Position numbers and translations under genes: made by a program | Notes under the pieces: model-generated | Database searches by the model: none | Told to the model about the DNA's origin: nothing | What the model saw: only the letters and a program-made list of their open reading frames with translations | Shown: positions 7,180 to 23,518 of the stretch, piece by piece | Layout: each line of letters opens with the position of its first letter | How positions within the stretch are numbered: the first letter of the stretch is position 1 | DNA from: Phyllobacterium sophorae | GTDB taxonomy: Bacteria; Pseudomonadota; Alphaproteobacteria; Rhizobiales; Rhizobiaceae | Direction of reading: 5' to 3' | Length of the DNA stretch: 64,000 nt | Assembly: GCF_003010965.1 (NCBI RefSeq) | Contig: NZ_PGGM01000004.1 | Coordinates: 186,001 to 250,000, forward strand

Positions 7180-7200
7180 GCCCTGCCCCCTGGGCATGGC

Positions 7201-7226: not shown

Positions 7227-7250
7227 AACACAGCAACCGGAGGCGATCAC

Positions 7251-7382
7251 ATGCGCATGCAAACATGGATATCGACGGCTGTCATCATCATCCTTGCACT
7301 CGTGGCGTTCCTTTGGCTTTACCCGGCAAGCGATCAGACGCCCGGCCAACCTTCGCCGCATGCACTGGATCAGTCCAATTAA
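7251..7382 (+). CDS. Small one-helix membrane protein (43 aa)
   Basis: The ATG follows GGAGG at good spacing. The product begins MRMQTWISTAVIIILALVAF, giving one hydrophobic helix at about residues 6-25, then a short Pro/Gln/Ser-rich tail. An EcfG-type promoter lies just upstream, suggesting induction by general stress. The family is not recognised. It is topologically similar to the 48-residue protein at 7468, which has its own EcfG-type promoter. Confidence 0.6.
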   Translation: MRMQTWISTAVIIILALVAFLWLYPASDQTPGQPSPHALDQSN

Positions 7383-7400
7383 CCGGCCACGTCGGTTGAA

Positions 7401-7425
7401 GGAACCAGTTGTTTGCCGCAGCGTT
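7401..7425 (+). promoter_or_regulatory. EcfG (general stress sigma)-type promoter
   Basis: GGAAC at 7401-7405, then 16 bases, then CGTT at 7422-7425; counted as GGAAC-N18-TT it fits the alphaproteobacterial EcfG pattern fully. It precedes the 48-residue protein gene at 7468 and probably also drives the GFA-family gene 28 bases beyond. Confidence 0.65.
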
Positions 7426-7467
7426 ATCCCTTGGTCGCAATTCTTCCGCTCATCAAAGGATTAAACA

Positions 7468-7614
7468 TTGAACCGCAACGGTCTGTACTTAATTGTCGGT
7501 GCTCTTCTGGTCGTCGTCGTCGGCTTGGGCATCTATGTCTACCATGAAGAAACCAAGCCCGCCGGCGTCGAACTGAAGATCGGCGAGGGTGGCATCTCCA
7601 TAGAAGAAAATTGA
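7468..7614 (+). CDS. Small one-helix membrane protein (48 aa), TTG start
   Basis: This frame starts with TTG preceded by AAAGGA. The product reads MNRNGLYLIVGALLVVVVGL at the N-terminus, one clear membrane helix, then a charged tail with KPAGVELKIGEGGISIEEN. Similar tiny proteins of this form occur in rhizobia to my recollection, but no function is known to me. The EcfG-type promoter upstream predicts stress induction, and the GFA-family gene follows closely enough to share the transcript. Using TTG rather than ATG is the only way to include the membrane helix, since no in-frame ATG precedes it. Confidence 0.65.
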   Translation: MNRNGLYLIVGALLVVVVGLGIYVYHEETKPAGVELKIGEGGISIEEN

Positions 7615-7642
7615 TATGCTTGCTGTTTGAAGGGAGGGACCC

Positions 7643-8053
7643 ATGAAAGTCGACGGAGCGTGCCATTGCCGCCGCATAACGTTCACTTGCGATGCCGATC
7701 CGGATGAAGTGAGCATATGCCATTGTACCGACTGCCAGATCCTGACCGGGACGGCCTTTCGCACATCGGTTCCCGTGGCGGCGGACAACTTTCATATTCT
7801 ATCAGGGTCCCCAAAAACCTATATCAAGATCGCCGCAAGCGGCGCGCGCCGGGTACAGGCCTTTTGTGGTGAATGTGGTACGCCGATCTATGCAACCTCC
7901 GATAGCAACAATCCATCGGTCTACGGTGTGCGGGTCGGCACGCTCGATCAGCGTTCCCAATTGCGGCCAACCCATGCCGTCTGGCAGCGGTCGGCGCTTC
8001 CGTGGGTGCCGGCCATTGCCGGCATCACCGTCTATGACGAGGAAGACGGCTAG
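7643..8053 (+). CDS. GFA-family zinc-binding protein
   Basis: This 136-residue protein of the GFA/CENP-V family (named for glutathione-dependent formaldehyde-activating enzyme) has the paired zinc-binding Cys motifs GACHCRRITFTC (residues 6-17), SICHCTDCQ and AFCGECGTPIY. Most members are small cytoplasmic beta-tent proteins whose activity is unproven; the formaldehyde role applies to a few. GGGAGGG precedes the ATG. It lies 28 bases after the 48-residue membrane protein gene and probably shares its EcfG-type promoter, so stress induction is likely. Family is secure, reaction is not. Confidence 0.85.
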   Translation: MKVDGACHCRRITFTCDADPDEVSICHCTDCQILTGTAFRTSVPVAADNFHILSGSPKTYIKIAASGARRVQAFCGECGTPIYATSDSNNPSVYGVRVGTLDQRSQLRPTHAVWQRSALPWVPAIAGITVYDEEDG

Positions 8054-8240
8054 CCGCCCGGCCAAGGTGCGACGGTTCCCCTATCGCGCCCGATATTTCT
8101 AAGACTTATTGATAATTGACAGGGATCAGCAGGGGAAATAGTCACAATACCCTTTTTAATCGTTTTAAGCCGGCTTGGGAGGAAGCTGGTTTTGGCGGCG
8201 ACCGGCCGACGGCATTACGTCACGACGGCCTTGGCCCAGA

Positions 8241-8365
8241 GGCCTGATTTCAAACCAAAATCATAATCAAAAAATTCATTTGGAGGAAAATGATGAGATT
8301 CAAAAACACGCTTATTGCGGGATTGCTCGGCTGCACCATGCTGGCCGGCTGCAACGGCTCAGATG
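8241..8365 (+). repeat. Direct repeat carrying 5' leader and lipoprotein signal, copy 1
   Basis: This ~125-bp block runs from GGCCTGATTTCAAAC through the ribosome binding site and the signal-peptide codons of the first GH92 gene. It is nearly identical to 11463-11588 ahead of the second. The two GH92 bodies are far more diverged than this block, so it was copied recently or is kept alike by gene conversion. Confidence 0.85.
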
Positions 8366-11300: not shown

Positions 11301-11385
11301 TAACCTTGCCCCGCCATCGGGTCCGGGTGCCGATTACAGCAAGGCAACCGCCAAGGAGGCAACGGGCGTCCAGATCGTCCAGTAA
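8293..11385 (+). CDS. GH92-family alpha-mannosidase-like lipoprotein with coiled-coil spacer
   Basis: This is a 1030-residue lipoprotein. The signal peptide begins MRFKNTLIAGLLGCTMLAGC, with lipobox LAGC and the acylated Cys at residue 20. Residues about 30-215 are Glu/Lys/Leu-rich heptad-like coiled coil. From about 225 (DMALTQFVDLFVG) the rest is glycoside hydrolase family 92, an exo-acting, Ca2+-dependent alpha-mannosidase family. Family landmarks include QTPFGMVSFGPDT, FSMWDTYRS, YIGNEPAFQTPWAYNW and GLPGNDDMGATSAWYVW near residue 895. It should be anchored to the outer membrane or periplasmic face and trim mannose from glycans. The ATG at 8293 has better spacing from GGAGG than the one at 8290. 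It is followed by a paralogue 130 bases downstream. The exact linkage cleaved is inferred from family only. Confidence 0.88.
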   Translation: MRFKNTLIAGLLGCTMLAGCNGSDDKNPTTPDTSQSTFDTLKNEFDQLKTESEADQTRFADILKALAEIQERLTLSETDAKNDVAELQSRMTAVEIDLAALKALGTRISTLENALEETGERTLSVDDLARLTTLHGDFATLKRDYDAAIKLKLEAADIADLLAAVETLKTDKADQGTIAKLQDAVQKLQEDLAASQKLGATSVNDFTNRVTALEDALYKLLNPRTDMALTQFVDLFVGTTDTTTGGGHSGNLNPGAQTPFGMVSFGPDTMGSGSGWGYGSGGYYKDSTIQYFSMTHLNGPGCRGQGAVAILPQESGSAISTGGVGYSHANESAEPGYYKVKFNNNIVSELTATTRTGMARFTWPDATKAFLTIDATRNNSNKSGVASSMVDLTFGADKQSLSGKAIASPFCEATWSQPVYFYATFDKKLKNTSPVANAVATLQFDLTDADKTVQLKVGISSVSAANAKANLEAENPGWMFDGPNGTKTKSSTIWNQRLNTIQIDLAKPENASKLTAATANYLKQFYSAFYRVYSGPIVFSDVNGDYRSMKQVNLGSAAGSVPQRATENVANYKFTADGKDASYKTHYSGFSMWDTYRSAAQLVAFIAPDEASDMMQSLVADAQQCGAFPHWVDGSEDTTPMQGDHAPNVVAGSYMFGARGFDLDNARKFMRQSASNTKSACNNKSSSLGQLGNYIKNGYVNTADSDRASSNTLEMITTDGSIGAFLQALPETAEVDQAEIQTLFKRAANWKNIFNDSTKTLGARNAAGAWQNGNFFHESTEPNYFWSFAQDWTALIDRLGFDAGTGKVDTAKGKAAAITRLNTLFSIPASTPFTGAGAEPTGRDLNGGEYSNNYYIGNEPAFQTPWAYNWAGAPKYAQYIIPVIMRKNFMMIPGGLPGNDDMGATSAWYVWAALGLYPVVPSAPGLAVSAPQFAGATVWLGNGKKLRIETDKEALLGDVRYINEMKLNGATYQGSWLPLDKIRNGGTLSFTLSATPTEWGTGDNLAPPSGPGADYSKATAKEATGVQIVQ

Positions 11386-11462
11386 TTCCTGGCATGAGAA
11401 ACGGCAAAGGCGCAGCTCGCCCCTTTGCCGGCGCTCATGGCCGCAAAATCGCATTTTATCCA

Positions 11463-11588
11463 GGCCGCTGATTTCAAACGAAAATCATAATCAGAAAATT
11501 CATTTGGAGGAAATGATGCGATTCAAAAACACGCTTATTGCGGGATTGCTCGGCTGCACCATGCTGGCCGGCTGCAATGGCTCGGACG
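11463..11588 (+). repeat. Direct repeat carrying 5' leader and lipoprotein signal, copy 2
   Basis: This is nearly identical to 8241-8365, differing at only a few bases over the untranslated leader, the GGAGG and about 24 codons. Identity stops just after the lipobox, where the two proteins switch to unrelated linkers. Confidence 0.85.
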
Positions 11589-14074
11589 GCGATAAAGCCG
11601 CTACCGGCCAGGGCACCTACGACGAAATGACCGTGCGCAATGGCGCGCCACAGGACGATGCCGGCAAGGAGAACCAACCCGGCCCGGTCGGCCAGAATCA
11701 GGACAATCCTGACGAACAGAAACAGGACGACCCTTTGGCGATCAACAGGCTTGATCCATTGCCCGCGCCGCGTACCGACATGGCGCTGACCCAGTTCGTC
11801 GATCCGCTGATCGGCACGGGACAGGTACCGGCGACCGATACGGGGACAAAGGAAGATCTTCTTGGCGGTTTCACCACACCTTCAGCGAGTGTGCCATTCG
11901 GCATGATCGCATGGGGTCCCGATACGCCGCCGGTACCGAATACCTGGAGCCCGCCCGGCTATCATTATACCCAGGCCTCGATCACCGGCTTCAGCATGAC
12001 CCATCTGAGCGGTGTCGGTTGTGATGCAGGCGGCGCCTTTCCGGTTCTGCCGGTTACCGATGCGAAACAATCCAGCATCGTTTTCAGCCACGGCGATGAA
12101 ATTGCGCAGGCCGGCTATTATTCAGTCAAGATGTCCAACGCGGTTCAGGTGCAATTGGCGGCAGCGGAACGAAGCGGATCGGGGCAGTTCACCTACCCGG
12201 CCGCAAGTCCCGCGATGCTGAAAATAACCTCCAAAACGAACAATGGCACCGGCACCATATCGGTGGATCAGCCGAATCGAACCGTCTCGGGCGATGCGAC
12301 GGGTGGCGGCTTTTGCGGTGCTGGTCAGAGCTACAAGCTTTATTTCCATGCGGCGTTCGATCAGCCCTTTACGGCCACGACGTCCGGCGCCGCTGCCACG
12401 CTGACATTTACACCGCCGCCCGCACCGGTTTCCGGAGTGGGCATAAAGGCCGGCATGAAAGTTGGCCTTTCCTATGTGAGCGCGAGCAATGCCAAGGCCA
12501 ATCTCGAAGCGGAGACCGGCGCGATGAGTTTCGATCAGACACGGCAAAACGCCGACGATGCCTGGAACAAGCGTCTGAACACGATTCAAATTACCGGTGG
12601 AAGTACGGACGACAAGAAGAAATTCTACACAGCCCTGTACCACGCCTTCCTGGCACCATCGATATTCAGCGATGTGAATGGCGACTTTATCAGTTTCAAC
12701 AGCGCCGCCACGACCCGGAAAGCGCCGGCCGGCCATGTGCAATACACGACCTTCTCCAGCTGGGACACTTACCGCTCGCTGATCCCGCTTCAGGCCCTGC
12801 TTGCACCGCTGGAAGTCGGTGACATGATGCAGTCGCTGATCTTTGACGCCGACGATTGCGGCGGCACATTCCCGATGTGGGCCGAAGGCAACAACAACAG
12901 CAATATCATGCCGGGCGACGGGGCATCGATCATCGTGGCGCAAGCCCATGCCTTCGGCGTCAAGGATTTCGACACGCAGAAAGCCCGCACAATCATGCTC
13001 GATACCGCCTTCGGGCGAAAGACCACTTGCCGGGGCGTCAGGACCTTGCCGGGTCTGAGCGGCTATATAAGCCGCGGTTATCTTGCCAAAGGTGCAGGCG
13101 AAGGGCAGCCCACCTCCACCAATATGGAATATGCAAGCACCGACTTCGCCGTTTCGCGCTTTACGAGCGCCGTCCCGGCATCAGATGCCCAGATTGTCGC
13201 GGGTGACACGGCCGCCGAACCCGCATCCTTGCTGACCCGTTCGGGCAACTGGGCAAATCTGTTCAACCCGGACTGGCGTAAGGTGAAAGGCCAACCCTAT
13301 CCGCAATTGCAGCCGCGCAACAGTGACGGTACGTGGAGACCATACCTCCCCGTCTCGACATGGGACAATGATTACCGGGAAGGCAATGCGGAACAATATA
13401 CATTCATGGTGCCCCATGACATTCGCGGGCTTTTCCGCAAGCTGGTGATCGACCCGACCAAAGATGCGAACGCGGAAAATGATGCCGTCGCCCGGCTCGA
13501 TGAATTCACCATGAACCTGAATGGCGGCTGGAGCTATCAGCCGGCGCGGCTTTGGATCGGCAATGAGCCCGGATTCCTCACACCCTGGATGTATAATTGG
13601 ACCAGCCAGCCGCACAAGACGCAGGCGCTGGTTCGCCGCATTCTCGACGAGCAGTTCACAACGGCGCCATCCGGTCTTCCGGGCAATGATGACGAGGGCG
13701 CAATGTCGGGAATATTCGTCTGGGGTGCGCTCGGCCTCTATCCGGAAATTCCGGCTGTACCCGGTTTTGCGCTGAACAGTCCGCTTTTTCCCAAGGCGAG
13801 CATCCTGCTTGGCAACGGCAAAGTGATAACCATCAGCGCTGACAAGTCGCCGGCGAAATATATTCAGAAGCTGACAGTCAATGGGTCTCCCCATGACAGC
13901 CCCTGGATCGGCCTCGACAAATTGTCGGCTGGGGCGCGACTTGATTTCTCGCTCGCCGGCACGGTGAGCTGCTGGGGAACAAATCCTGCGACGGACACCC
14001 TGCCGCCTTCCTTTGCCGCCGACGGAACCCAGACACCAAGACTGAAGCCGGAAAAGGAATGCGCACCAAACTAG
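11516..14074 (+). CDS. GH92-family alpha-mannosidase-like lipoprotein with Pro/Gln/Asp linker
   Basis: This is an 852-residue paralogue of the preceding gene. The signal peptide and lipobox are identical to it, but the linker is only about 60 residues, rich in Asp, Gln, Pro and Asn. The catalytic part begins DMALTQFVDPLIG near residue 86, at the same junction as in the paralogue. GH92 landmarks are SVPFGMIAWGPDT, FSSWDTYRS, WIGNEPGFLTPWMYNW and GLPGNDDEGAMSGIFVW near residue 720. In the last motif the usual S-A-W-Y is S-G-I-F, so substrate preference may differ. Upstream in-frame ATGs fall inside the previous gene; the ATG at 11516 is spaced correctly from GGAGG and matches the paralogue. A strong hairpin ends the unit. 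Confidence 0.87.
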   Translation: MRFKNTLIAGLLGCTMLAGCNGSDGDKAATGQGTYDEMTVRNGAPQDDAGKENQPGPVGQNQDNPDEQKQDDPLAINRLDPLPAPRTDMALTQFVDPLIGTGQVPATDTGTKEDLLGGFTTPSASVPFGMIAWGPDTPPVPNTWSPPGYHYTQASITGFSMTHLSGVGCDAGGAFPVLPVTDAKQSSIVFSHGDEIAQAGYYSVKMSNAVQVQLAAAERSGSGQFTYPAASPAMLKITSKTNNGTGTISVDQPNRTVSGDATGGGFCGAGQSYKLYFHAAFDQPFTATTSGAAATLTFTPPPAPVSGVGIKAGMKVGLSYVSASNAKANLEAETGAMSFDQTRQNADDAWNKRLNTIQITGGSTDDKKKFYTALYHAFLAPSIFSDVNGDFISFNSAATTRKAPAGHVQYTTFSSWDTYRSLIPLQALLAPLEVGDMMQSLIFDADDCGGTFPMWAEGNNNSNIMPGDGASIIVAQAHAFGVKDFDTQKARTIMLDTAFGRKTTCRGVRTLPGLSGYISRGYLAKGAGEGQPTSTNMEYASTDFAVSRFTSAVPASDAQIVAGDTAAEPASLLTRSGNWANLFNPDWRKVKGQPYPQLQPRNSDGTWRPYLPVSTWDNDYREGNAEQYTFMVPHDIRGLFRKLVIDPTKDANAENDAVARLDEFTMNLNGGWSYQPARLWIGNEPGFLTPWMYNWTSQPHKTQALVRRILDEQFTTAPSGLPGNDDEGAMSGIFVWGALGLYPEIPAVPGFALNSPLFPKASILLGNGKVITISADKSPAKYIQKLTVNGSPHDSPWIGLDKLSAGARLDFSLAGTVSCWGTNPATDTLPPSFAADGTQTPRLKPEKECAPN

Positions 14075-14106
14075 GGGCAAAAATGAGAAAGACGTTTCGC
14101 CATTCG

Positions 14107-14137
14107 ATTTCCCGGCCGCAACGGGCGGCCGGGAAAT
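14107..14137. terminator. Bidirectional hairpin terminator
   Basis: A perfect 13-bp stem, ATTTCCCGGCCGC / GCGGCCGGGAAAT, with a five-base loop lies between the GH92 gene and the convergent TIM-barrel gene. There is no long T tract on either side. Confidence 0.7.
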
Positions 14138-14149
14138 ATCCTTGAGTGT

Positions 14150-14977
14150 TCAAATCAGTCCGGCTTTGATCGTGTCCATGCTCGCCGAAATCGCTGCGGA
14201 CGGATTTTCAAGCCGCTGGACTTCGGCCGCAAAAGGTTCGAACGAGAACAGACCCGTGTAACCCTGATCGAGCAAGGCCTGGATCTGGTCGACATTACCG
14301 AGGCGGTCATCCGCATCGACCAGCACCCGGTGCGGGTCGCGCATGTCGCTGACAGTCACCTCCGGATCGGTCACGCCGGAAATATGGACGAGGCCCGTCA
14401 ACGCCGGAAACAGTTCCGGTTCGCCGGCAAGGTGGTGGTGGAACGTGTCATGCACGAGTTTGAAGCGGCCCTGCCCGCCAATGGTTTCGATTGCCTCGGC
14501 CGCCTCGCGCTTGGAACGCAGCGAACAGATCTCGAACCCCAGCGGCTCGACGAAGCCGATGAGCCCGCGGGTCTCGAGGATCGGCTTCAGCGCCTTCAGC
14601 GCGGTGCGCAGGTTCTCCTGCCGCTCGCCATCCTGGCGGCCGGAGCCATCATTGACCGGAACCAGCACCAGTGCCGCCGCTCCGGCCTCCTTCGCATAGT
14701 CGGCAAGCTCGATCGCTTGCTGCTCGCGCTCCGGCGTCCACTCGTTGAACCGTTGCAGCGCATTGATCGTGGCAATGTGAACGCCGGCCTCCGCGGCCAG
14801 CGACCGGACTTCCGCTGCCGGCGTACCATCGATGATCGCATTGCCTTCGAGGTCGTTGCGTATCTCGACATCGCTGAGGCCCAGCGACTTTGCGAGCTGA
14901 AAGAACCCGCGGATGCCAAGGCTCGGCGCGACCATATGGTTGATTGCAAAAACAGGGTGAGAAAATGTGTCGGTCAT
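14150..14977 (-). CDS. iolI: Xylose-isomerase-like TIM barrel, probable 2-keto-myo-inositol isomerase
   Basis: This 275-residue protein belongs to the AP-endonuclease-2/xylose-isomerase-like TIM-barrel superfamily. It resembles IolI, which interconverts 2-keto-myo-inositol and 1-keto-D-chiro-inositol. Metal-site residues are seen in IGFVEPLG (Glu), LVHDTFHHHLAG (Asp, His) and VHISGV (His), with FSFEPFA (Glu) near the end, as expected for this fold. It lies in reverse orientation between the GH92 pair and a LacI regulator, and its upstream region holds TGATAG half-sites like those of the regulator. It may feed inososes into inositol catabolism. Another sugar epimerase of the same fold is possible. 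Confidence 0.7.
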   Translation of the reverse strand: MTDTFSHPVFAINHMVAPSLGIRGFFQLAKSLGLSDVEIRNDLEGNAIIDGTPAAEVRSLAAEAGVHIATINALQRFNEWTPEREQQAIELADYAKEAGAAALVLVPVNDGSGRQDGERQENLRTALKALKPILETRGLIGFVEPLGFEICSLRSKREAAEAIETIGGQGRFKLVHDTFHHHLAGEPELFPALTGLVHISGVTDPEVTVSDMRDPHRVLVDADDRLGNVDQIQALLDQGYTGLFSFEPFAAEVQRLENPSAAISASMDTIKAGLI

Positions 14978-15265: not shown

Positions 15266-16297
15266 TCAGATGTTCTCCGGCAGATAGATATCGAACGGCA
15301 GGAAGGTCTGACCCGGGGCATTGGCGGCGCCACGTTCGATGGCATGGCCCATCAGTTCCACGAGTTCGCGGCAGAGCCGCGGCAGCGGCGTGGCGATGGC
15401 CATGGTGACGATGTCTTCGGCCAGAGCCGCCCGCGATTCCGGCGTGATCTCGTTGACGATCATCACTGGCGGCGGCTCCACTGCCTGCTCACGCAAGGCT
15501 GCGATCGCGCCTTCCATGCCCCCGCCCGCCACATAGCAGCCGGCCAGATCCGGATGGCGGCGGAGAAGTTCCAGCATCGCCTCATGCGTGATCTGGCGTG
15601 TCTCCAGATTGACCATCGTATCGAGCACGGTGAACTCCGGCGCTTGTTCGCGAAAGAAGGCCCGGAAGCCGATCTCGCGCAATTCATGGCCGTGAAAGCG
15701 ATGACTGCCGACGAAAATCGCGACTTTTCCTGGTTTTTTGGCTGCTTTTGTGATCATCCAGGCCGCTGTGCGCCCGACCTTGCGGTTGTTCACGCCGACA
15801 TATCCTTCGCGAACTCCGGCGGCGAAATCCGAAAGCAGCGAGAAAACCGGGATGTCCTTCGCCTTCAGATCCTCCACCACCGCACTGATCGACGGGTGAT
15901 CGGGAGCGACCAGGCCGATGGACCGGCAGCGCCCCGCCAGCGATTTTACTTTGGCGATAATCTCGTCCGGCGCTTGCGACGCGGAAAAATCAATAACCGG
16001 AACGCCGCGAAAATGCGGCGCCTGGGTCACGGCGTTTTCGATCTCCCGCGCAAACTCCTGATAGAAATGATGGCCGGGCTTTTGCAATACGAAGCCCAAT
16101 CTGTACTCAGGCAACTCCTGCCGCATGCGCTGACGGATCAGCCCGGCCGCGTGATAGCCTATTCGATTGGCAGCTTCGTACACGCGCCGTGCCGTCTCCT
16201 CGCGAACCGGCAACCGGTTGTTCAGGACACGGTCCACGGTCGCAACACTGACCCCTGACTCCCGCGCCAGATCGGCAATTGTCGGCCTGTTCGCCAC
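15266..16297 (-). CDS. LacI-family transcriptional regulator
   Basis: This is a 343-residue LacI/GalR repressor. The N-terminal helix-turn-helix PTIADLARESGVSVATVDRV is followed by the hinge, then a periplasmic-binding-protein-like sensor domain. The frame is open to 16339, but that would place an operator inside the coding part. The GTG at 16297 gives the usual LacI start MANRPTIADLA and has GGAG eight bases upstream, so it was chosen; a GTG at 16306 is an alternative. It is divergent from the MocD/E/F-like genes and downstream-facing to the iolI-like gene. Matching operators lie near both promoters, so it probably controls both and itself. The inducer is likely a cyclitol or its derivative, by context. 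Confidence 0.85.
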   Translation of the reverse strand: MANRPTIADLARESGVSVATVDRVLNNRLPVREETARRVYEAANRIGYHAAGLIRQRMRQELPEYRLGFVLQKPGHHFYQEFAREIENAVTQAPHFRGVPVIDFSASQAPDEIIAKVKSLAGRCRSIGLVAPDHPSISAVVEDLKAKDIPVFSLLSDFAAGVREGYVGVNNRKVGRTAAWMITKAAKKPGKVAIFVGSHRFHGHELREIGFRAFFREQAPEFTVLDTMVNLETRQITHEAMLELLRRHPDLAGCYVAGGGMEGAIAALREQAVEPPPVMIVNEITPESRAALAEDIVTMAIATPLPRLCRELVELMGHAIERGAANAPGQTFLPFDIYLPENI

Positions 16298-16309
16298 CTT
16301 ACGCACTCC

Positions 16310-16326
16310 ATGATAGAATCTATCAT
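16310..16326. promoter_or_regulatory. LacI-type operator O1
   Basis: ATGATAGAATCTATCAT is a perfect inverted repeat with 7-bp arms and a 3-base centre. It lies 13 bases from the regulator start codon and 138 bases from the mocD-like start, in the divergent promoter region. Confidence 0.75.
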
Positions 16327-16352
16327 TCAATTCTACCAATCCCTGATTGAAA

Positions 16353-16370
16353 ATGATAGAATTTTGTCAT
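16353..16370. promoter_or_regulatory. LacI-type operator O2
   Basis: ATGATAGAATTTTGTCAT repeats the left ten bases of O1 exactly and has a degraded right arm. The O1-O2 distance of 43 bases is about four helical turns, suitable for cooperative binding of a tetramer. Confidence 0.55.
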
Positions 16371-16463
16371 CTTTGATTGAGGAGGGTTGTACGCAAGCGT
16401 AGTATCTCCGCCATCCAGCCGGAAAGAAGAAACCGTTTCCGCTGCACGACTGGGAGGTCTCGC

Positions 16464-17567
16464 ATGAATACTGCCGCACTCGCCGCGCCAACCAAACGCG
16501 ATTACAGCCTTATCGGCCGTGACTCGCGGCTGGCAGTTGAGTCGGGCCTTGCCGCAGCGCAGTGGTACCATACCGACATCCCGCGCAAGCAGATGAAGGA
16601 GCTGATGAAACGTTCCGATGGCCCGGCGATGCGCGACACGGCGATCTGGCTCGGCAGTATGGTTATCCTTGCCGGTCTCGGCGTTTATTTCTGGGGCACA
16701 TGGCTCTGCGTGCCGTTCTTCCTCGCCTATGGCGTTCTCTATGGTTCCGCATCGGACAGCCGCTGGCACGAATGCGGTCATGGCACAGCGTTCAAGACCC
16801 GCTGGATGAATGATGTGGTCTACCAGATCGCCTGCTTCATGATCATGCGCAATCCCGTGACCTGGCGCTGGAGCCACACGCGCCATCACACCGACACTGT
16901 CATTGTTGGCCGCGATCCGGAAATTGCCGTGATGCGCCCGCCGGATCTCCTGCGCGTCGTCTTGAATTTCTTCGGCATTCTCGATGTCTGGCATGCCTCA
17001 GGCGATCTCGTCCGCAATACGCTGGGCAACGTCAGCGCGGAAGAAAAGACCTTCATTCCCGAGCAGGAACAGCCGCGGGTGGTGCAGATCGCCCGCATCT
17101 GGGCCGCGATCTACGCGGTCACGATTGCCCTGTCGATCCATACGGGATCGATCATGCCACTGGTGCTGATCGGGCTGCCGCGTCTCTATGGGGCCTGGCA
17201 TCATGTGCTTACCGGCCTGCTGCAGCATGGCGGGCTTGCCGACAATGTCACCGATCACCGGCTCAATAGCCGTACTGTTCTCATGAATCCGGTCAGCCGG
17301 TTCATCTACTGGAATATGAACTATCACGTCGAGCATCACATGTTCCCGATGGTGCCATACCACGCGCTGCCCCAGCTCCATGCAATGATCAAACACGACC
17401 TGCCCGCCGCCAACCCGTCCATTCTGCACGGGTATCGCGAGATGCTACCGGCGTTCCTGCGCCAGCTGCGCAACGAGGATTATTTCATCAAGCGTGAGCT
17501 GCCGCCAACGGCAAAGCCCTATCGTGAGGAATTTCACAACGAACCGGTGGCCACAGCAGCTGAATAG
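16464..17567 (+). CDS. mocD: MocD-like membrane fatty-acid-desaturase-family oxygenase
   Basis: This is a 367-residue integral-membrane di-iron oxygenase of the fatty-acid desaturase/hydroxylase family. The three histidine boxes are present: HECGH (about residue 102), HTRHH (about 139) and HVEHH (about 288), with four hydrophobic segments between them. GGGAGG precedes the chosen ATG; the open frame further upstream lacks a ribosome site. A Rieske ferredoxin and a ferredoxin reductase follow at once, the same trio as mocD, mocE and mocF of Rhizobium rhizopine catabolism, where the complex is proposed to remove the O-methyl group of 3-O-methyl-scyllo-inosamine. Nearby inositol genes support a methylated cyclitol as substrate, but this is inference. 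Confidence 0.8.
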   Translation: MNTAALAAPTKRDYSLIGRDSRLAVESGLAAAQWYHTDIPRKQMKELMKRSDGPAMRDTAIWLGSMVILAGLGVYFWGTWLCVPFFLAYGVLYGSASDSRWHECGHGTAFKTRWMNDVVYQIACFMIMRNPVTWRWSHTRHHTDTVIVGRDPEIAVMRPPDLLRVVLNFFGILDVWHASGDLVRNTLGNVSAEEKTFIPEQEQPRVVQIARIWAAIYAVTIALSIHTGSIMPLVLIGLPRLYGAWHHVLTGLLQHGGLADNVTDHRLNSRTVLMNPVSRFIYWNMNYHVEHHMFPMVPYHALPQLHAMIKHDLPAANPSILHGYREMLPAFLRQLRNEDYFIKRELPPTAKPYREEFHNEPVATAAE

Positions 17568-17595
17568 CAATCACCAATACCAGGGAGGAATAACC

Positions 17596-17910
17596 GTGAG
17601 CAACTGGATCGAGGCCTGCACCTTTGACGACATCGATGAAGAAGATGTCATGCGATTTGACCACGCGGGGCGCACTTTTGCGATCTATCGCAGTCCCGAC
17701 GACGAGTTCTTCGCCACGGATGGCCTGTGCACCCATGAACATATCCACCTGGCCGATGGGTTGGTGATGGATGAAATCATCGAATGTCCCAAGCACAATG
17801 GACGCTTCAATTACAAGACCGGTGAAGCCAAGGGCGCGCCAGTTTGCGTCAATCTGAAGACTTATCCGGTGAAAGTCGAGGCCGGCAAAGTATTGATCCA
17901 ATTAGGATAA
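17596..17910 (+). CDS. mocE: MocE-like Rieske [2Fe-2S] ferredoxin
   Basis: This is a 104-residue soluble Rieske ferredoxin. The cluster ligands are CTHEH (Cys, His) and, 16 residues on, CPKHNG (Cys, His). It would pass electrons from the reductase encoded next to the membrane oxygenase encoded before it. The start is GTG at 17596, placed after GGGAGGAA; an open frame continues upstream but only overlaps the previous gene. The stop codon overlaps the start of the reductase gene (TAATG), indicating translational coupling. The protein fits the MocE class of Rieske ferredoxins. Confidence 0.88.
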   Translation: MSNWIEACTFDDIDEEDVMRFDHAGRTFAIYRSPDDEFFATDGLCTHEHIHLADGLVMDEIIECPKHNGRFNYKTGEAKGAPVCVNLKTYPVKVEAGKVLIQLG

Positions 17911-19148
17911 TGGCTATGGAAAAAGGAATGGTCATCATCGGCGCAGGGGAATGCGGCGCGCGCGCCGCCTTCGCCTTGAGGGAAACCGGCTATGACGGAC
18001 CGGTCACCCTGATCGGCACCGAAAAGCACCTGCCCTACGAGCGCCCGCCTCTGTCAAAAGACGCCATGGTCTCGGAGCATCACCCCCTGCCGAGAACGAT
18101 CGCGGAGGGAACTCAGTTCAGCGAGAAGCGTATCGATTTCATCGGCGATACGACCGCATCGGCGATAAACCGTTCCGAGAAGAACGTGGTTTTCGAAGAC
18201 GGTCGAACCGTGGAATACGATCGCCTCCTGCTCGCGACCGGGGCAATCCCCCGTTCCCTGCCCCAGGCAGCAGGCAGCAGATATTGCGTGACGTTACGCA
18301 GTTTTGACGATGCTCTTGCCATCCGCGCCAAGTTCCGGCCGGACGCGCGCATCGTGATCGTAGGCGGTGGCTTCATCGGACTTGAGCTTGCGGCAAGCGC
18401 CCGCAGGCGCGGAGCGAGAGTGACCGTGATCGAGGCACAAGCCCGCATCATGATGCGAGGCGTGCCGACGGAAATCGCTCAAGTCATCGACCGGCGTCAC
18501 CGCGAGGAAGGCGTGACCATCCGCTGCGATACCGGGATTGTCTCCATTGCCGACAATGCGAATAACGTCGCGATCACCCTTTCGACCGGCGATGTCATCG
18601 CGGCCGATCTTGCCGTGATCGGCATCGGCGCATCGCCGGTCACAGGGCTGGCAGAGGCGGCCGGTCTTGAGACCGGCAACGGCATTGTCGTCAATGAATG
18701 GCTGCAGACCAGTGACCCGGATATTTTCGCGGCCGGCGATTGCTGCACCTTCCCGCTGGCCATTTATGGCGGGAGGCGTGTGCGGCTCGAGGCCTGGCGC
18801 AATGCCCAGGAGCAAGGATCTCTTGCGGCCCGCAACATGCTCGGATCGCTTGAGCCGCATCAGGCCGTTCCGTGGTTCTGGTCGGATCAATATGAGCTTG
18901 GTCTGCAGGTTGCCGGACTGCCGGACGAAGGCACGCAGACCATATGCCGTCAGCTAGACGATGGTGCCTTCATCCTCTTTCACCTCACTGACGACGGCCG
19001 CCTTGCCGCCGCAAGCGGTATCGGCCCCGGCAATGCGGTCGCAAAGGACATAAGGCTTGCCGAAATGCTCATTTCCCGCGGCGCCAGACCCGACCCCATC
19101 CAGCTTGCTGCACCCGGCGTCAGACTGAAATCGCTCCTCGCAGCATAG
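17910..19148 (+). CDS. mocF: MocF-like NAD(P)H:ferredoxin reductase (FAD)
   Basis: This is a 412-residue FAD-dependent pyridine-nucleotide-disulfide-type reductase like those of bacterial dioxygenase systems (BphA4/RhuFR type). The FAD motif VIIGAGECGARAA is at the N-terminus, the NAD(P) motif IVIVGGGFIGLELAASAR is in the middle, and the second FAD motif is DIFAAGDCC. The ATG at 17910 overlaps the stop of the ferredoxin gene; the ATG at 17916 is an alternative. The gene completes the three-part oxygenase electron chain and is followed 12 bases later by the PanB-like gene, so all five plus-strand genes appear to form one operon. Confidence 0.87.
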   Translation: MAMEKGMVIIGAGECGARAAFALRETGYDGPVTLIGTEKHLPYERPPLSKDAMVSEHHPLPRTIAEGTQFSEKRIDFIGDTTASAINRSEKNVVFEDGRTVEYDRLLLATGAIPRSLPQAAGSRYCVTLRSFDDALAIRAKFRPDARIVIVGGGFIGLELAASARRRGARVTVIEAQARIMMRGVPTEIAQVIDRRHREEGVTIRCDTGIVSIADNANNVAITLSTGDVIAADLAVIGIGASPVTGLAEAAGLETGNGIVVNEWLQTSDPDIFAAGDCCTFPLAIYGGRRVRLEAWRNAQEQGSLAARNMLGSLEPHQAVPWFWSDQYELGLQVAGLPDEGTQTICRQLDDGAFILFHLTDDGRLAAASGIGPGNAVAKDIRLAEMLISRGARPDPIQLAAPGVRLKSLLAA

Positions 19149-19160
19149 ACAGGACAGGAA

Positions 19161-19958
19161 ATGGCCAACAGACGACCTACGGTAGCGGACATCCTCGCAT
19201 TGAAGGGCCGCCGCCAATTGACGATGCTGCGTGTAGAAACGCTTGAAGAAGCGGAAGCCGCTGAACGGGCGCGCGTCGATATGCTGTCGGTGCCGCCCGC
19301 ATTGCTCACGCCGGAGTTTCGCGACGCCGCACCCTCAGCTTTCACCTTCCCAGGCCTCGAATATGGGGATTTCATTACGGCCGAGGACTATATGCGTGCT
19401 GCATTCAAGGCGCTGCGTGCGGGCGGGGATGCGGTCTATTGCGCCGCAAGTCTCGCCACGGTGCGGCGGATGCGTGACGAAGGTATCCCGGTTTGCGGCC
19501 ATGTCGGGCTCATTCCTTCCAGAGCAACCTGGACCGGCGGCTTCAAGGCCGTCGGCAAGACAGCCTTGAGTGCACTGGAAATCTGGCGGCAGACCAAAGC
19601 GCTGGAGGACGCCGGTGCCTTTGCGGCGGAAATCGAGGTGGTTCCCGTCGACGTAGCACGTGCCATTTCCGAGCGCACGTCGATGTTCATGATCTCGATG
19701 GGTGCGGGAACGGGTTGCGACGCGCAATATCTGTTCGCACAGGACGTTCTTGGTTCAAATCGCGGCCATTATCCGCGTCATGCCAAGGTCTACCGCAACT
19801 TTTCGGCTGAATATGACCGCCTGCAGCAGGAGAGAGTCGCAGCCTTCTCCGAGTTTGTCGCAGACGTGCACGCACAAAACTATCCGGGGCCCGAACATGT
19901 GGTTGGAATTCCGCGTGACGAACTGGACCGTTTCCTGAAAGAGCTTCCTGGAGTTTAA
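19161..19958 (+). CDS. Diverged PanB-like (ketopantoate hydroxymethyltransferase family) protein
   Basis: This 265-residue protein aligns along its length with PanB, the TIM-barrel enzyme that adds a C1 unit from 5,10-methylene-tetrahydrofolate to a 2-oxoacid. Shared parts include GIPVCGHVGLIPS, the GFKAVGK segment, AEIEVVPVDVA and SMGAGTGCDAQYL. The metal-ligand motifs differ: the usual V-G-D-S-L-G is replaced by MLSVPPALL, and the usual V-K-I-E-G-G by AVYCAAS. It is therefore unlikely to be the ordinary pantothenate enzyme. It is cotranscribed with the oxygenase trio and abuts purU (4-base gap), so a role in handling the released C1 unit or the demethylated product is plausible. Function is unproven. 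Confidence 0.7.
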   Translation: MANRRPTVADILALKGRRQLTMLRVETLEEAEAAERARVDMLSVPPALLTPEFRDAAPSAFTFPGLEYGDFITAEDYMRAAFKALRAGGDAVYCAASLATVRRMRDEGIPVCGHVGLIPSRATWTGGFKAVGKTALSALEIWRQTKALEDAGAFAAEIEVVPVDVARAISERTSMFMISMGAGTGCDAQYLFAQDVLGSNRGHYPRHAKVYRNFSAEYDRLQQERVAAFSEFVADVHAQNYPGPEHVVGIPRDELDRFLKELPGV

Positions 19959-19961
19959 CTT

Positions 19962-20858
19962 ATGGATCATCAGCCCCAAAATCACCTGGCCGCATCGAAA
20001 GCGGCCGAGCATGCACATCGCTTCGTCCTCACCCTCTCCTGCGAAGACAAGCCCGGCATCGTTGCCGCGGTGACGACGGAACTTGCCGGTACCGGCGCTA
20101 ACATTGCGGAGAGCAACCAGTTCTGGGACCGGCAGACCAATCGCTTCTTCATGCGCATCGCCTTCACCACGCCGGAAGCGATCGTCAAGGATGACATCGA
20201 ACGCAGCTTGAAATCATGTGTCGACCGCTTCGACATGAAGACCACTTTGGTCGATCAGGCGAAGAAGCCGAAGATCATCATCATGGTGTCGAAGTTCGAC
20301 CATGCCCTGTTGCATCTGTTCTACCAGATCAAGGTTGGCTGGCTCGATGCCGATGTCGCCGCCATCGTCTCCAACCACGAGGACAGCCGCCGCTTTGCCG
20401 AGCATGAGGGCATCCCCTATCACGTGCTGCCGGTATCCAGGGACAACAAGAAGGAACAGGAAGAGGCGCTGCTGCAGATCGTCAAGGACACCGGTGCCGA
20501 CCTCGTCATCCTCGCCCGCTACATGCAGGTGCTGTCCGACAATCTGTCGAAGCGGCTGTTCGGCAAGGTGATCAACATCCACCATTCGTTCCTGCCCAGC
20601 TTCAAGGGCGCCAAGCCCTATCACCAGGCGCATGAGCGCGGTGTCAAGCTGATCGGTGCCACCGCGCATTATGTCACCCCGGACCTCGACGAAGGTCCGA
20701 TCATCGAGCAGGAGACCGAACGGGTCAGCCACGCGATGAGCGCCGAGGATTTTGTGGCCACCGGCCGCGATATCGAAAGCCGGGTGCTGGCACGAGCGGT
20801 GAAGAAGCACCTCGAATCCCGCGTCATGCTCAACGGCCACAAGACCGTGGTGTTTTAA
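19962..20858 (+). CDS. purU: Formyltetrahydrofolate deformylase
   Basis: This is a 298-residue enzyme that hydrolyses 10-formyl-tetrahydrofolate to formate and tetrahydrofolate. An ACT domain (SCEDKPGIVAAVTTELA, residues about 26-43) is followed by the formyltransferase-like domain. The active-site residues appear in INIHHSFLPSFKGAKPY (Asn, His) and GATAHYVTPDLDEGPII (His, Asp). It is the last gene of the moc-like operon, four bases after the PanB-like gene. In bacteria purU often accompanies demethylases such as the glycine-betaine system, where it recycles folate loaded with C1 units; both the upstream MocDEF-like and the convergent Gbc-like systems would benefit. Confidence 0.93.
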   Translation: MDHQPQNHLAASKAAEHAHRFVLTLSCEDKPGIVAAVTTELAGTGANIAESNQFWDRQTNRFFMRIAFTTPEAIVKDDIERSLKSCVDRFDMKTTLVDQAKKPKIIIMVSKFDHALLHLFYQIKVGWLDADVAAIVSNHEDSRRFAEHEGIPYHVLPVSRDNKKEQEEALLQIVKDTGADLVILARYMQVLSDNLSKRLFGKVINIHHSFLPSFKGAKPYHQAHERGVKLIGATAHYVTPDLDEGPIIEQETERVSHAMSAEDFVATGRDIESRVLARAVKKHLESRVMLNGHKTVVF

Positions 20859-20871
20859 GACGAGCGGCTTG

Positions 20872-20897
20872 GCCTGATGGGTAGATGCCCATCAGGC
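20872..20897. terminator. Bidirectional hairpin terminator
   Basis: A perfect 10-bp stem, GCCTGATGGG / CCCATCAGGC, with loop TAGATG lies between the converging purU and gbcB-like genes. Confidence 0.7.
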
Positions 20898-20913
20898 TGA
20901 GTTTAGAGATTTC

Positions 20914-22017
20914 TCAAGCCTCGATTTCGACATTGCCGAGTGGCTTGGAGCAGCAGGCGAGGACATAACCCTCGTCGATTTCCTCGTCGAGAATGCCGCC
21001 ATTATGGTCCATGTCGACTTCGCCGGAAATCTTCATCACCTTACAGGTGCCACAGAGACCGGATTCGCAGGCCGCTGCGATCCGGATACCGGCGCCGCGC
21101 GCCGCTTTCAGAATCGTGTCGCCTGCAACGCATGGCACATCCATTCCCGACATGGAGAATGTGACGGTCGATGCCGCCTCGACAGCTTCTGTCGAGATGT
21201 CATCCATCATCGGCAAAACCGGCTCGGCGGCGGGACCAAAGCTTTCCTGATGATAGTGGTTCATGTCGAAACCCGATGCTTCCAGCATGGTGCGGACATC
21301 GCGCATGAACCCTTCCGGTCCGCAGCAGAATATTGTCCTGTCCTTGAAATCCGGGGCGAGCAGCGGCAGTTTTGGTGCTTCGAGCCTGCCGCGAATGCCG
21401 GTCCACACCTGGCCCATCTCGTGTTCCTTGATGAGGAAGGCGAGCTTCAGGTTGGGCATGCAACTCATGAGATATTCGAGTTCCTTGCGGAAAATGATAT
21501 CGCTGGGGCGGCGCGCGCAGGTGACGAAACTGATGTCGCTCTGCGGCGCGCAATCATGCATCCAGCGGGTCATTGACATCATCGGGGTAATGCCGGATCC
21601 GGCCGAGATAAACAGATATTTTCCGCCCGGATGTTTGCGCATGGAGAAATCGCCAAGCGGGCCGAATGCCTTGAGCCGCACGCCGGGTGTCAAATGATCC
21701 AGCATCCAGCGCGTGCCGATGCTATCCTCCTGCGCCTTGACCGTCACAGCGATGGTGAAGGGCCGCGACGGGGTGGAGGAGAGCGTATAGGTGCGCAGCA
21801 CCGCTTCGGGCTGCACCGGCAGTTCGAAAGTCATGAACTGGCCCGGCTCATAGCGGAACCAATTCTGATTGTCCGACCTGAAGGTGAAGGTCTTCACATT
21901 GGGCGCTTCCTCAACAATTGACAGGCACTCAAGCAGATGCAGCCGGTCATTCCACGGCTGCATCTGGTCGAGGTGTGGATAGTTCTGAGGAACACCCCCA
22001 GAGCGAGAGTAGGTCAT
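20914..22017 (-). CDS. gbcB: GbcB-like ferredoxin:NAD(P) oxidoreductase
   Basis: This is a 367-residue flavin reductase with an FAD-binding ferredoxin-reductase domain (RTYTLSSTPSRPFTIAVTVK), an NAD(P) domain (FCCGPEGFMRDVRTML) and a C-terminal plant-type [2Fe-2S] domain (CESGLCGTCKV ... CCSKP). It donates electrons to the Rieske oxygenase encoded upstream, as GbcB does for GbcA in glycine betaine demethylation. The longer open frame runs through a repeat element, so the start is placed at the ATG at 22017. That ATG and the next codons (MTYSRSG) lie inside the terminal arm of the repeat, and the ribosome binding site is weak. Confidence 0.85.
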   Translation of the reverse strand: MTYSRSGGVPQNYPHLDQMQPWNDRLHLLECLSIVEEAPNVKTFTFRSDNQNWFRYEPGQFMTFELPVQPEAVLRTYTLSSTPSRPFTIAVTVKAQEDSIGTRWMLDHLTPGVRLKAFGPLGDFSMRKHPGGKYLFISAGSGITPMMSMTRWMHDCAPQSDISFVTCARRPSDIIFRKELEYLMSCMPNLKLAFLIKEHEMGQVWTGIRGRLEAPKLPLLAPDFKDRTIFCCGPEGFMRDVRTMLEASGFDMNHYHQESFGPAAEPVLPMMDDISTEAVEAASTVTFSMSGMDVPCVAGDTILKAARGAGIRIAAACESGLCGTCKVMKISGEVDMDHNGGILDEEIDEGYVLACCSKPLGNVEIEA

Positions 22018-22271
22018 ATTGCACCGTTCTGCCGGAGAGAATTCGCGGACAAGGTCGAGGGGATTGGCGCGGTCGCACTGGTTGTGCGGCCAAAGCCGAG
22101 CCCCGAAGGATTTGGCCCGAATTCGCTCGGCCCTTCGGGTTTCTGGCTGGCGGCCATCCACTTTGTCAGGCGGCATCGTTCGATGGAAAGACATCGGCCT
22201 CGCCACCTTTCTCGTGGGCTGTCTCGCCATCCGAGAAACAGAACTGGCGCAATATGGCCCACTCTCGCTCT
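22000..22271. repeat. MITE-like repeat with long terminal inverted repeats, copy A
   Basis: The ends are inverted repeats of about 30 bp (AGAGCGAGAGTAGGTCATAT outermost on the left, matching the reverse complement of 22252-22271 with few changes). The core holds CCGAAGG and the complement of CCGCCTGACAAAGTGG, shared with copies at 27514, 30322 and 32562. It fills the whole gap between gbcA and gbcB and reaches into the gbcB start. Orientation of the core is opposite to copies B and C. Confidence 0.8.
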
Positions 22272-22276
22272 CGTCA

Positions 22277-23518
22277 TTAAGCTACCCTGCTGAGTTTCTT
22301 GTCGCCGGAGAGACGCGTCTCCATCGCATTGCTGTACCATTCGAGGAATTGCAGCACACCGCCTTCATGCTCGACCGAGTAAGGACCAGGCTCGTAGGCG
22401 GGCGAACGGATACCGAAGGCGTTTTCTTCAACGATACGGCGATCCTGGTCGTTGGTCTCCAGCCAGACATGCGTCAGTTCTTCGATATTGTAGTCGACGC
22501 CTTCCACCGCATCCTTGTGCACCAGCCATTTGGTGGTGACCTGCGTTTCATTGGGACCGAGCGGCAGCACGCGGAACGAGATCGCATGATCGCCAAGAAT
22601 GTGATTCCATGTTGTCGGGTAATGATAGAGCAGCAGCGAACCGATCTGTTTGGCATTGACGTCATCGCTAAGCTGCCTGCCGACGGCACGCTTGCCGCTC
22701 AAGGTATAGCTCTCGGCATCGCGCAACAGTGGCACGCGCGTCGCGCGGTACTGGCCGTCCTCGGCAATACGGAAGACACTCGGCAGGCCAACGGCTTCAC
22801 ACTTGTCCCAATGCGCGACGATTTCCGGATCGTCCTTGGAACCCTGAATACCCGTGACACTCGGCGCCTCCGGGAAGGTCTTGCACAGTTCAGGGTGGTT
22901 GGCGACGCAGTGATAGCACTCGCGATTGTTTTCCCAGACAAGCTTCCAGTTGCCCTTTTCAACGATCGAGCTTTGGAACGCGACCTTCGTCTCGGTGAGG
23001 CGATGCGGCGCGAGGTAGGGTTCGAGCAGCGCGCGCGTCGCTGCGAAATCCGGCGCAACGGGTGCGAGGCAGATGAAGATATACCCGCCGACGCTTTCGC
23101 AATGAACGGTCTTCAGGCTGTGCTGGCTGGCGTCGAAATCATCGCCCATCTGGCGGGCAAACAGCAGGCGGCCATCGAGCTCATAGGTCCACTGGTGATA
23201 GGGGCAGACGAGCTTCGCCGCAGTACCCTTTTCGGCCGAGCAGACGCGTGAACCGCGATGGCGGCAGGAATTGTGGAAGGCTCTGATCTTTCCCTGCCGG
23301 TCACGAACGATGACAACCGGATAGTCGCCGACCTGCACCGTGAAATAATTCCCCGGCTTCGCCACTTCGCAATCATGACCGATGAACAGCCAGTCGCGAT
23401 AGAAGATGTTTTCCATATCGAGACGGTAATAGTCCGGATCGGAATAGAAGGCCTGTTCAAGTCCGTAGCCCGGTTTCCGGTTTTGAAGATTCCGGAGCAG
23501 TTCATTACGAATATCCAT
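22277..23518 (-). CDS. gbcA: GbcA-like Rieske oxygenase (betaine/stachydrine-type demethylase)
   Basis: This is a 413-residue alpha subunit of a Rieske non-heme iron oxygenase. The Rieske ligands are CRHRG and CPYHQW (about residues 84-107); the mononuclear iron site is in WENNRECYHCVANHPEL (about 200-216). The sequence is closest in form to GbcA (glycine betaine to dimethylglycine plus formaldehyde) and the stachydrine demethylase Stc2. A cobalamin riboswitch lies 131 bases upstream in the same direction. The reductase gene follows after a repeat element. Substrate could be glycine betaine, proline betaine or another quaternary amine. Confidence 0.85.
   Translation of the reverse strand: MDIRNELLRNLQNRKPGYGLEQAFYSDPDYYRLDMENIFYRDWLFIGHDCEVAKPGNYFTVQVGDYPVVIVRDRQGKIRAFHNSCRHRGSRVCSAEKGTAAKLVCPYHQWTYELDGRLLFARQMGDDFDASQHSLKTVHCESVGGYIFICLAPVAPDFAATRALLEPYLAPHRLTETKVAFQSSIVEKGNWKLVWENNRECYHCVANHPELCKTFPEAPSVTGIQGSKDDPEIVAHWDKCEAVGLPSVFRIAEDGQYRATRVPLLRDAESYTLSGKRAVGRQLSDDVNAKQIGSLLLYHYPTTWNHILGDHAISFRVLPLGPNETQVTTKWLVHKDAVEGVDYNIEELTHVWLETNDQDRRIVEENAFGIRSPAYEPGPYSVEHEGGVLQFLEWYSNAMETRLSGDKKLSRVA

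Follow-up and report, generated by a model that had tools for sequence, protein, structure and literature searches.

The five-gene operon and its surroundings

On a 64,000-nucleotide stretch of the Phyllobacterium sophorae genome (hereafter the window; positions 186001-250000 of contig C44, NZ_PGGM01000004.1, in a genome of 6.35 Mb), we examined five closely spaced genes—encoding a MocD-like oxygenase, a MocE-family Rieske ferredoxin, a MocF-like ferredoxin reductase, a divergent PanB-fold protein that we call PanBL, and the deformylase PurU—together with the LacI-family regulator and inositol-related genes that accompany them (Table 1). All five open reading frames (ORFs) are intact and on the forward strand, and the operon closes with a 3' hairpin for which none of 200 shuffled sequences reached an equally low energy. 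The intergenic gaps along the operon are 28 bases, an overlap (or 5 bases), 12 bases, and 3 bases, with mocE and mocF meeting in TAATG (TAA at 17908-17910, ATG at 17910) and ATG 17916 as an alternative mocF start. The first three genes show the mocDEF-type order of three-His-box oxygenase, MocE-family ferredoxin, and ferredoxin reductase. The His boxes of MocD (HECGH/HTRHH/HVEHH), the Rieske motif of MocE (CxH...CxxH), and the NIHHS and DEGPI motifs of PurU are all intact, the N-H-D motifs of PurU being presumably catalytic; the nearest NCBIfam models to MocF are HcaD/AndAa, both below cut-off. Across those loci in the range L031-L118 that have a MocD match, identity to the window protein is 77-88% in 56 of 80 and 61-77% in 24.

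An earlier note, made from the letters of this DNA alone, had described a five-gene unit related to MocDEF, with the TAATG overlap, and both the description and the relationship hold up in the ORFs, families, motifs, and gene order. Of the spacings it gave for the last two genes, 12 bases is correct, but the gap before purU is 3 rather than 4; and position 16310, from which it counted the unit, is no gene start and falls instead at the palindrome of 16311-16325. Families and context bear out oxidative demethylation as the best inference about function, and we regard O-demethylation by MocDEF as likely. The predicted role of PurU as the outlet for folate-bound one-carbon (C1) units is likewise supported by its model score and motifs.

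The operon almost certainly belongs to an inositol-catabolic region, because iolB, iolE, iolD, and an iolC-aldolase fusion lie on the same stretch as the gene for IolG; these iol genes are 2.9-8.7 kb to the left of the window and have an RpiR-type regulator gene with them. The models scoring above cut-off across this set are TIGR04380, TIGR04378, TIGR04382/NF047869, TIGR04377, and TIGR04379. A CUT2-type transporter, iolG, and an iolI-like gene are present nearby, as had been noticed, and the observation is strengthened by the iol genes beyond the window edge. The remark that no mocA-mocB-mocC set adjoins the operon is true of its direct neighbourhood but less so at greater distance: across an intervening 8.7-kb stretch lie IolG, iolE, and a binding protein that shares 74% identity with the MocB-position protein of a rhizopine-type cluster (L034).

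Table 1. Features of the operon and its surroundings; coordinates refer to the window unless a contig is given
Feature	Coordinates	Strand	Basis
MocD-like membrane di-iron oxygenase (FA_desaturase), predicted O-demethylase	16464-17567	+	367 amino acids; PF00487, 126 bits
MocE-family Rieske [2Fe-2S] ferredoxin, GTG start	17596-17910	+	104 amino acids; TIGR02377, 190.8 bits > 136.15
MocF-like NAD(P)H ferredoxin reductase	17910 or 17916-19148	+	~410 amino acids; Pyr_redox_2, 240.9 bits; Reductase_C
PanBL, a diverged protein of PanB fold and predicted partner for C1 (formaldehyde/folate)	19161-19958	+	265 amino acids; PF02548, 134.4 bits
PurU, formyltetrahydrofolate deformylase	19962-20858	+	298 amino acids; TIGR00655, 334 > 285.95
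Strong hairpin, likely terminator, between purU and convergent Rieske reductase gene	20866-20903	.	-28.6 kcal/mol, z -4.98
Putative LacI operator TGATAGAATCTATCA (TGATAGA-N-TCTATCA), palindrome around one base	16311-16325	.	recurrence in LacI-mocD intergenic regions
LacI-family regulator with Peripla_BP_4 sensor domain, divergent from mocD	15266-16297 (start 16297, 16306 or 16339)	-	PF00356 + PF13407
IolI-like xylose-isomerase-type TIM barrel, adjoining lacI	14150-14977	-	PF01261, 90.8 bits
Phytochelatin-synthase-like, GFA-domain, and two large GH92 genes	6523-14074	+	between transporter and IolI-like gene
Periplasmic sugar/cyclitol-binding protein, CUT2-type ABC transporter	4448-5422	-	Peripla_BP_4, 207 bits
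ABC transporter ATPase, double domain	2658-4205	-	PF00005, 2 stretches
ABC transporter permease	1607-2635	-	PF02653, 149 bits
IolG, inositol 2-dehydrogenase	357-1346	-	TIGR04380, 423.3 > 355
iolB, iolE, iolD, iolC-aldolase fusion	C44:177269-183112 (outside window)		all above cut-off

PanBL and PurU as candidate C1 partners

The surroundings of PanBL were compared among close loci (the best 80 of at least 563 confirmed relatives, 77 of them counted), 40 hand-picked diverse loci (37 counted), and 20 hand-picked controls with canonical panB, same order (19 counted). Rows without a called PanBL were excluded (L040, L042, and L082 among the close loci; L150, L155, and L157 among the diverse loci; L038 among eight plasmid loci), as was control L165, in which no PanB was called. 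Some loci are cut by contig ends, and the names of neighbours come from BLAST matches to a reference set of limited size, which may overlook other families of oxygenase. A di-iron gene of the desaturase or sterol-desaturase type was found no more than 6 kb from PanBL at 71/77 close and 30/37 diverse loci and at six of the seven counted plasmid loci, and near canonical panB at 0/19 controls. Over the same distance, MocE accompanies PanBL at 71/77 close and 23/37 diverse loci, CUT2-type transporter genes at 40/77 and 27/37, and an IolI-like homologue at 41/77 and 3/37. The gene directly after PanBL is purU at 14/77 close and 0/37 diverse loci, and purU lies within 6 kb at 15/77 of the close set. 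A genome survey of the kind that the earlier note had proposed thus speaks against chance co-location: many genomes share the set of mocD, mocE, mocF, and PanBL, and part of them have all five genes, PurU being an optional member.

The oxygenases that PanBL accompanies are of both the desaturase type and the sterol-desaturase/FA_hydroxylase type; at one locus (L148, 7556-9525) a Rieske ring-hydroxylase-type oxygenase directly precedes PanBL, in the place of the di-iron gene, and at another (L154) a betaine-type binding protein gene lies directly behind it. Because PanBL persists while the oxygenase class and the substrate genes vary, and a C1 unit is what these reactions would have in common, PanBL is probably a C1-handling partner.

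Judged by sequence, PanBL is not a PanB. It is 88-91% identical to its counterparts in five named Phyllobacterium strains and passes the Pfam cut-off for PF02548, yet fails the NCBI PanB models (99.6 against 207.55 for TIGR00222; 122.3 against 272 for PRK00311). Its AlphaFold2 model (mean predicted local distance difference test, pLDDT, of 84.2; confidence is low in the loops at 119-126 and 205-209) has the PanB fold, and the first 28 Foldseek rows are PanB, with later neighbours including 2-methylisocitrate lyase and an aldolase. In PanB, we take D45 of the VGDS loop to be a metal ligand and Lys112 to be catalytic. Like PanB (1m3u, 3vav), PanBL keeps equivalents of H136 and E181 (His and Glu in 27/27 aligned sequences); unlike PanB, it lacks the VGDS loop with its D45 ligand (columns gapped in 26-27 of 27), mostly carries Tyr at the Lys112 position (25/27), and in the window protein has other residues in place of D84 and E114. 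All 19 controls keep the D and K columns, whereas D84 and E114 alone do not discriminate, because six of the 19 control PanB also depart there. The genome encodes a separate, canonical-scoring PanB (C46:36104, 337.8 bits), which rules out PanBL as its pantothenate enzyme. PanBL is a widespread and apparently unstudied look-alike of a vitamin-synthesis enzyme. A separate PanB subgroup (L159-L162, L164, L169) keeps the VGDS loop and the Lys, with LGCMPY and KPQGG replacing the D84 and E114 motifs.

That PanBL itself loads the formaldehyde carbon onto tetrahydrofolate (THF) is a tentative proposal. Alternatively, PanBL might be an aldolase or lyase that acts on the demethylated carbon skeleton, leaving PurU to serve general folate balance only—a role in keeping with the later Foldseek neighbours and with the changed metal and Lys positions. 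Against this stand the persistence of PanBL while transporters, dehydrogenases, regulators, and oxygenase class vary, and the placement of purU genes of different sources directly behind it; we consider such a lyase unlikely, if worth keeping in view.

A C1-handling role for PanBL fits what is seen of purU. The window gene, one of three genome copies above cut-off, has a GC content at third codon positions of 0.81, against 0.64-0.74 in its operon neighbours. Its product is 95% identical to that of the copy at C7 in the same genome and 49-52% identical to PurU of the MocR-type clusters described below, and in a tree of 44 PurU sequences the label "beside PanBL" must change five times or more on branches with good support. 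By these comparisons, the purU genes behind PanBL have two or more origins, with about 50% identity between them. There is precedent for grouping the gene of a THF-dependent C1 enzyme with those of FolD and PurU (PMC10848231); as there, the folate-C1 outlet of the window sits with a pathway predicted to produce C1 units, but here purU follows a di-iron oxygenase and PanBL. At the S. meliloti ml21 pSymB locus (L031, 15801-20858), an integrase gene and a group II intron gene lie behind PanBL, and the locus has no PurU match.

Kinship with rhizopine clusters and the LacI-type site

The mocDEF genes reportedly belong to the rhizopine-catabolic moc cluster of S. meliloti L5-30 / R. leguminosarum, as described by Bahar in 1998; the moc genes on Agrobacterium pAoF64/95, from a paper that also names mocD, we take to concern a mannityl opine. 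As published, mocDEF is a rhizopine-inducible unit (PMC10107442), and in the available text of that paper the term "purU" is absent and PanB is unmentioned. We find mocD-mocE-mocF-PanBL-purU, in the same order as in the window, in MocR-type clusters of S. meliloti RCAM1115 (L195), Phyllobacterium zundukense Tri-48 (L196), and R. leguminosarum A1 (L034), each of which also encodes a regulator of the MocR type, together with iolE/mocC-like and MocA-like genes and one in the MocB position; the gene in the mocC position of L034 belongs to the iolE family. The published moc-box pair lies upstream of mocD with 0, 1, 2, and 4 mismatches in L195, L196, L034, and L089, respectively (four of the five MocR-type rows, L090 being left out; the best match in 50 shuffles of the L196 stretch had at least 6). 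In the window, the pair was not found within 6 mismatches at 16201-16600, and no MocR is among the called neighbours of mocD, LacI standing in that place. Because neither MocR nor moc-boxes are present, the window operon is a sibling of the rhizopine operon and not that operon itself: it shares the three-gene oxygenase order, the PanBL and purU genes after mocDEF, and a similar binding protein, but has LacI instead of MocR, the TGATAGANTCTATCA site instead of moc-boxes, IolG, IolI-like, and iolCDEB partners, and a position outside the MocR branch. In L195, the mocD match (13617-14677) is split across two frames and absent from the gene table, reflecting a frameshift or a sequencing error.

The position of the window outside the MocR branch emerges from a midpoint-rooted PanBL tree of 124 rows, in which the five MocR-type rows form one clade (99/86) with the window outside it. 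Because this clade is nested in a supported group of 49 rows (100/98), 40 of them LacI-type, the LacI type appears, given the midpoint root, to be the older and rhizopine use to be derived, which suggests an origin for the rhizopine demethylase. One genome (G664) holds both types, a MocR-type locus (L307) and a LacI-type locus (L306) with a 92% identical LacI, the operator, mocDEF, a 96% identical PanBL, and purU. A search that took in R. pisi and two other genomes found a rhizopine substrate-binding protein above cut-off in 0 of the 4 searched.

The window locus belongs to the LacI-mocDEF (fixV-associated) group, in which the regulator gene is likewise divergent from mocDEF and an IolI-like (msi119-type, PF01261) gene adjoins in several cases (PMC3538637; for SM_b20817-20820 of S. 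meliloti 1021, PMC11387232). The mocDEF genes, their rhizopine role, and the LacI-mocDEF arrangement are already known; PanBL, purU, and the operator are unmentioned in the accessible parts of these papers, and the window differs further in adjoining iolCDEB. The mocDEF genes of woody-host Pseudomonas syringae (PMC5132102) similarly lack mocCABR and adjoin a gene named as xylose isomerase, their function being unclear to the authors, but they belong to another phylum branch, and PanBL and purU are unmentioned in the portion available. In the literature searched, which covered few subscription journals, we found no description of PanBL and purU as members of the mocDEF unit (MocR-type clusters included), of the nested MocR branch, of the operator, of PanBL as an oxygenase-linked family, or of a bacterial pathway removing the methyl group of pinitol. 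PanBL and purU would thus add two overlooked genes to the mocDEF unit.

With at most 2 mismatches, the putative operator occurs in 46 of 57 LacI-mocD intergenic regions against about 0.1 expected from resampled sequences, a count that is partly circular because these 57 regions, through their k-mers, had served along with the window to define the motif. In a separate set, comprising the 30 best-scoring loci of a Mesorhizobium-like genus and not a random draw, it occurs at the same stringency in 29 of 30 LacI-MocD intergenic regions. In its own genome, the palindrome at 16311-16325 is the sole site at 1 mismatch or fewer, which points to a local regulon.

The window LacI is also 64-65% identical to the LacI encoded directly upstream of nifA in seven loci (L281, L282, L284-L287, L289), here called FixV-position loci because that placement is the one of FixV. 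FixV is reported to activate nifA2 "possibly in response to an inositol derivative" (PMC3538637). The operator is found with 1 mismatch about 0.6 kb upstream of nifA in L294-L296 (3/30 nifA loci; 0/300 when resampled) and with 2 mismatches upstream of nifA in L269. A function of this site at nifA would be conjectural. The window locus as a whole offers a candidate ligand class for the FixV lineage of regulators. The joint claim that PanBL founds an undescribed C1-capture class for oxygenase-type demethylases of any kind, as a PanB barrel that no longer performs ketopantoate chemistry and charges THF with formaldehyde or with the carbon of the nascent hemiacetal, that the LacI operon is an O-methyl-inositol system ancestral to rhizopine catabolism, and that the FixV ligand is an O-methyl-inositol such as pinitol is, taken whole, speculative and rather unlikely; were it true, the inositol derivative that starts nitrogen fixation in Mesorhizobium through FixV and nifA would be an O-methyl-inositol such as pinitol. 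Two side observations concern these nifA loci: in L294 and L295, LacI and IolI-like genes lie near the nifA-upstream site, and in the four genomes of L277-L280, NifA-like matches begin at profile position 167 and contain three in-frame TGA codons, which looks like a shared pseudogene.

Proposed pathway and competing explanations

On balance, we favour reading the locus as a LacI-controlled O-demethylation module set on an inositol-catabolic locus, and so as a compact candidate for O-methyl-inositol demethylation beside iol genes. A plant cyclitol bearing an O-methyl group, such as pinitol or ononitol, would enter through the CUT2-type transporter, and this compound or its product would either free LacI from the site at 16311 or convert LacI to an activator, the behaviour reported for the homologous FixV. 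MocF would take electrons from NAD(P)H and pass them by way of MocE to MocD; the di-iron centre of MocD would hydroxylate the O-methyl group, and the resulting hemiacetal would collapse to the free cyclitol and formaldehyde. The cyclitol would then be broken down by IolG and the iolCDEB enzymes, while the C1 unit would be placed on THF, with PanBL as the likeliest helper; FolD, a general enzyme assumed to be present, would oxidise it to 10-formyl-THF, and PurU would release it as formate with recycling of THF. O-methyl-inositol is the probable substrate, and for the C1 unit we lean towards the folate/formate route. The earlier note had left open whether an O- or an N-methyl group is removed; the sugar/cyclitol context favours the former and not the latter, and its suggestion of plant O-methyl-inositols gains support from the IolG and iolCDEB genes. 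Calling these compounds "as likely as rhizopine", however, undersells them, given the lack of MocR and of moc-boxes, the position of PanBL outside the MocR branch, and the genome that carries both types.

O-methyl-inositols are widespread in legumes (PMC8730688, PMC5789663), which make pinitol, ononitol, or both, and pinitol is reported to keep osmotic balance in Lotus nodules (PMC8730688). In Mimosa root exudate, of which pinitol is the most concentrated component, mocDEF of Rhizobium mesoamericanum rises 1.5-2.1-fold, a response that the authors read as one to rhizopine (PMC5789663). It may instead reflect pinitol; this reading is our own.

Several observations weigh against the demethylation reading or parts of it. 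MocD scores below every NCBIfam cut-off, its best models being desaturases and hydroxylases, and no solved structure matched it at E ≤ 1. The LacI arm is split, with 8.7 kb separating the binding protein gene from the IolI-like gene; the genes for the binding protein, the IolI-like protein, and LacI are consecutive in L039, L042, and L063 of Phyllobacterium, the first two no more than about 0.4 kb apart. As ligand evidence, the binding protein reaches just 49.9 bits on the NCBIfam model rhzpin_SBP against a cut-off of 420, and the protein in the MocB position of L034 also misses that model at 1e-30. No di-iron gene lies within 6 kb of PanBL at 6/77 close loci, and no recognised one at 7/37 diverse loci, where the neighbours are a Rieske oxygenase (L148), MocE (L144), PfkB and RbsD-type genes (L126), ThiC (L146), peptidase M20 (L149), MocA-like and SDR genes (L153), or unrelated genes (L143); conversely, one of the 19 controls (L171) has one MocE-type and one Rieske-oxygenase match nearby. 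Because a gene other than purU, or none, follows PanBL directly at 63/77 close and 37/37 diverse loci, formate release would not be obligatory and formaldehyde may leave otherwise; one of the five Phyllobacterium loci (L041) has no PurU match. Because the window PurU is 95% identical to the C7 copy, gene conversion could, within Phyllobacterium, take the place of repeated purU recruitment. A folate-dependent reaction of PanBL would be a guess from ancestry and neighbours, because the usual PanB catalytic positions are missing. In the PanBL tree, support is weak for several of the inner branches near the MocR clade, and the LacI label needs 14 changes. Finally, none of the seven FixV-position loci has the operator, at up to 4 mismatches, in the interval from LacI to nifA.

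Three other substrates were weighed. MocDEF might act on an O-methyl sugar—a methylated hexose or deoxysugar—instead of a cyclitol, since CUT2-type transporters and Gfo/Idh/MocA dehydrogenases occur at the diverse PanBL loci, some of which also have DUF4432 or PfkB-type genes, and two GH92 genes and an L-fuconate-type cluster are close by in the window; the partners in its own genome are, however, IolG and iolCDEB, and we think a sugar substrate quite unlikely. Rhizopine itself (3-O-methyl-scyllo-inosamine) is an improbable substrate: the gene order matches that of MocR-type clusters and the binding protein resembles the MocB-position protein, but the absence of MocR and moc-boxes, the low rhzpin_SBP score, the place of PanBL outside the MocR clade, and the co-residence of both types in G664 all argue otherwise, as does the LacI-type locus of S. 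meliloti 1021 (PMC11387232), a strain described as a non-producer of rhizopine (a statement about production, not degradation).

Demethylation of an N-methyl compound, a betaine such as stachydrine, would link the operon to the convergent Rieske oxygenase and reductase genes at 20914-23518, the oxygenase being closest to 3n0q, 3vca, and 4qup (we take the last two to be the stachydrine demethylase Stc2) and the distant locus L154 carrying its betaine-type binding protein, but we set this aside as highly improbable: the Stc2-like genes adjoin in just five Phyllobacterium loci among L031-L118, plus L306, lie on the opposite strand beyond the hairpin and beside L-fuconate-dehydratase-like genes, and the regulator and partner arm of the operon are of sugar/inositol type. 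Homarine catabolism was considered as a precedent, and no usable literature was found.

In their own right, the reverse-strand genes at 20914-23518 encode a Rieske oxygenase and a GbcB-like reductase, both below the NCBI GbcA/GbcB cut-offs and kept in five Phyllobacterium loci; with L-fuconate-dehydratase-like, FAH, SDR, and MaoC-like genes beside them, they form a demethylase-like pair at a deoxysugar-type cluster. On the other side of the operon, a defence island at 5.7-14.1 kb was considered and dropped, the genes there being those for GH92, phytochelatin-synthase-like, and GFA proteins, with one marginal PADLOC match (LmuB, E 0.00055). An ORF related to the second GH92 gene occupies the same position in L040 and L041.

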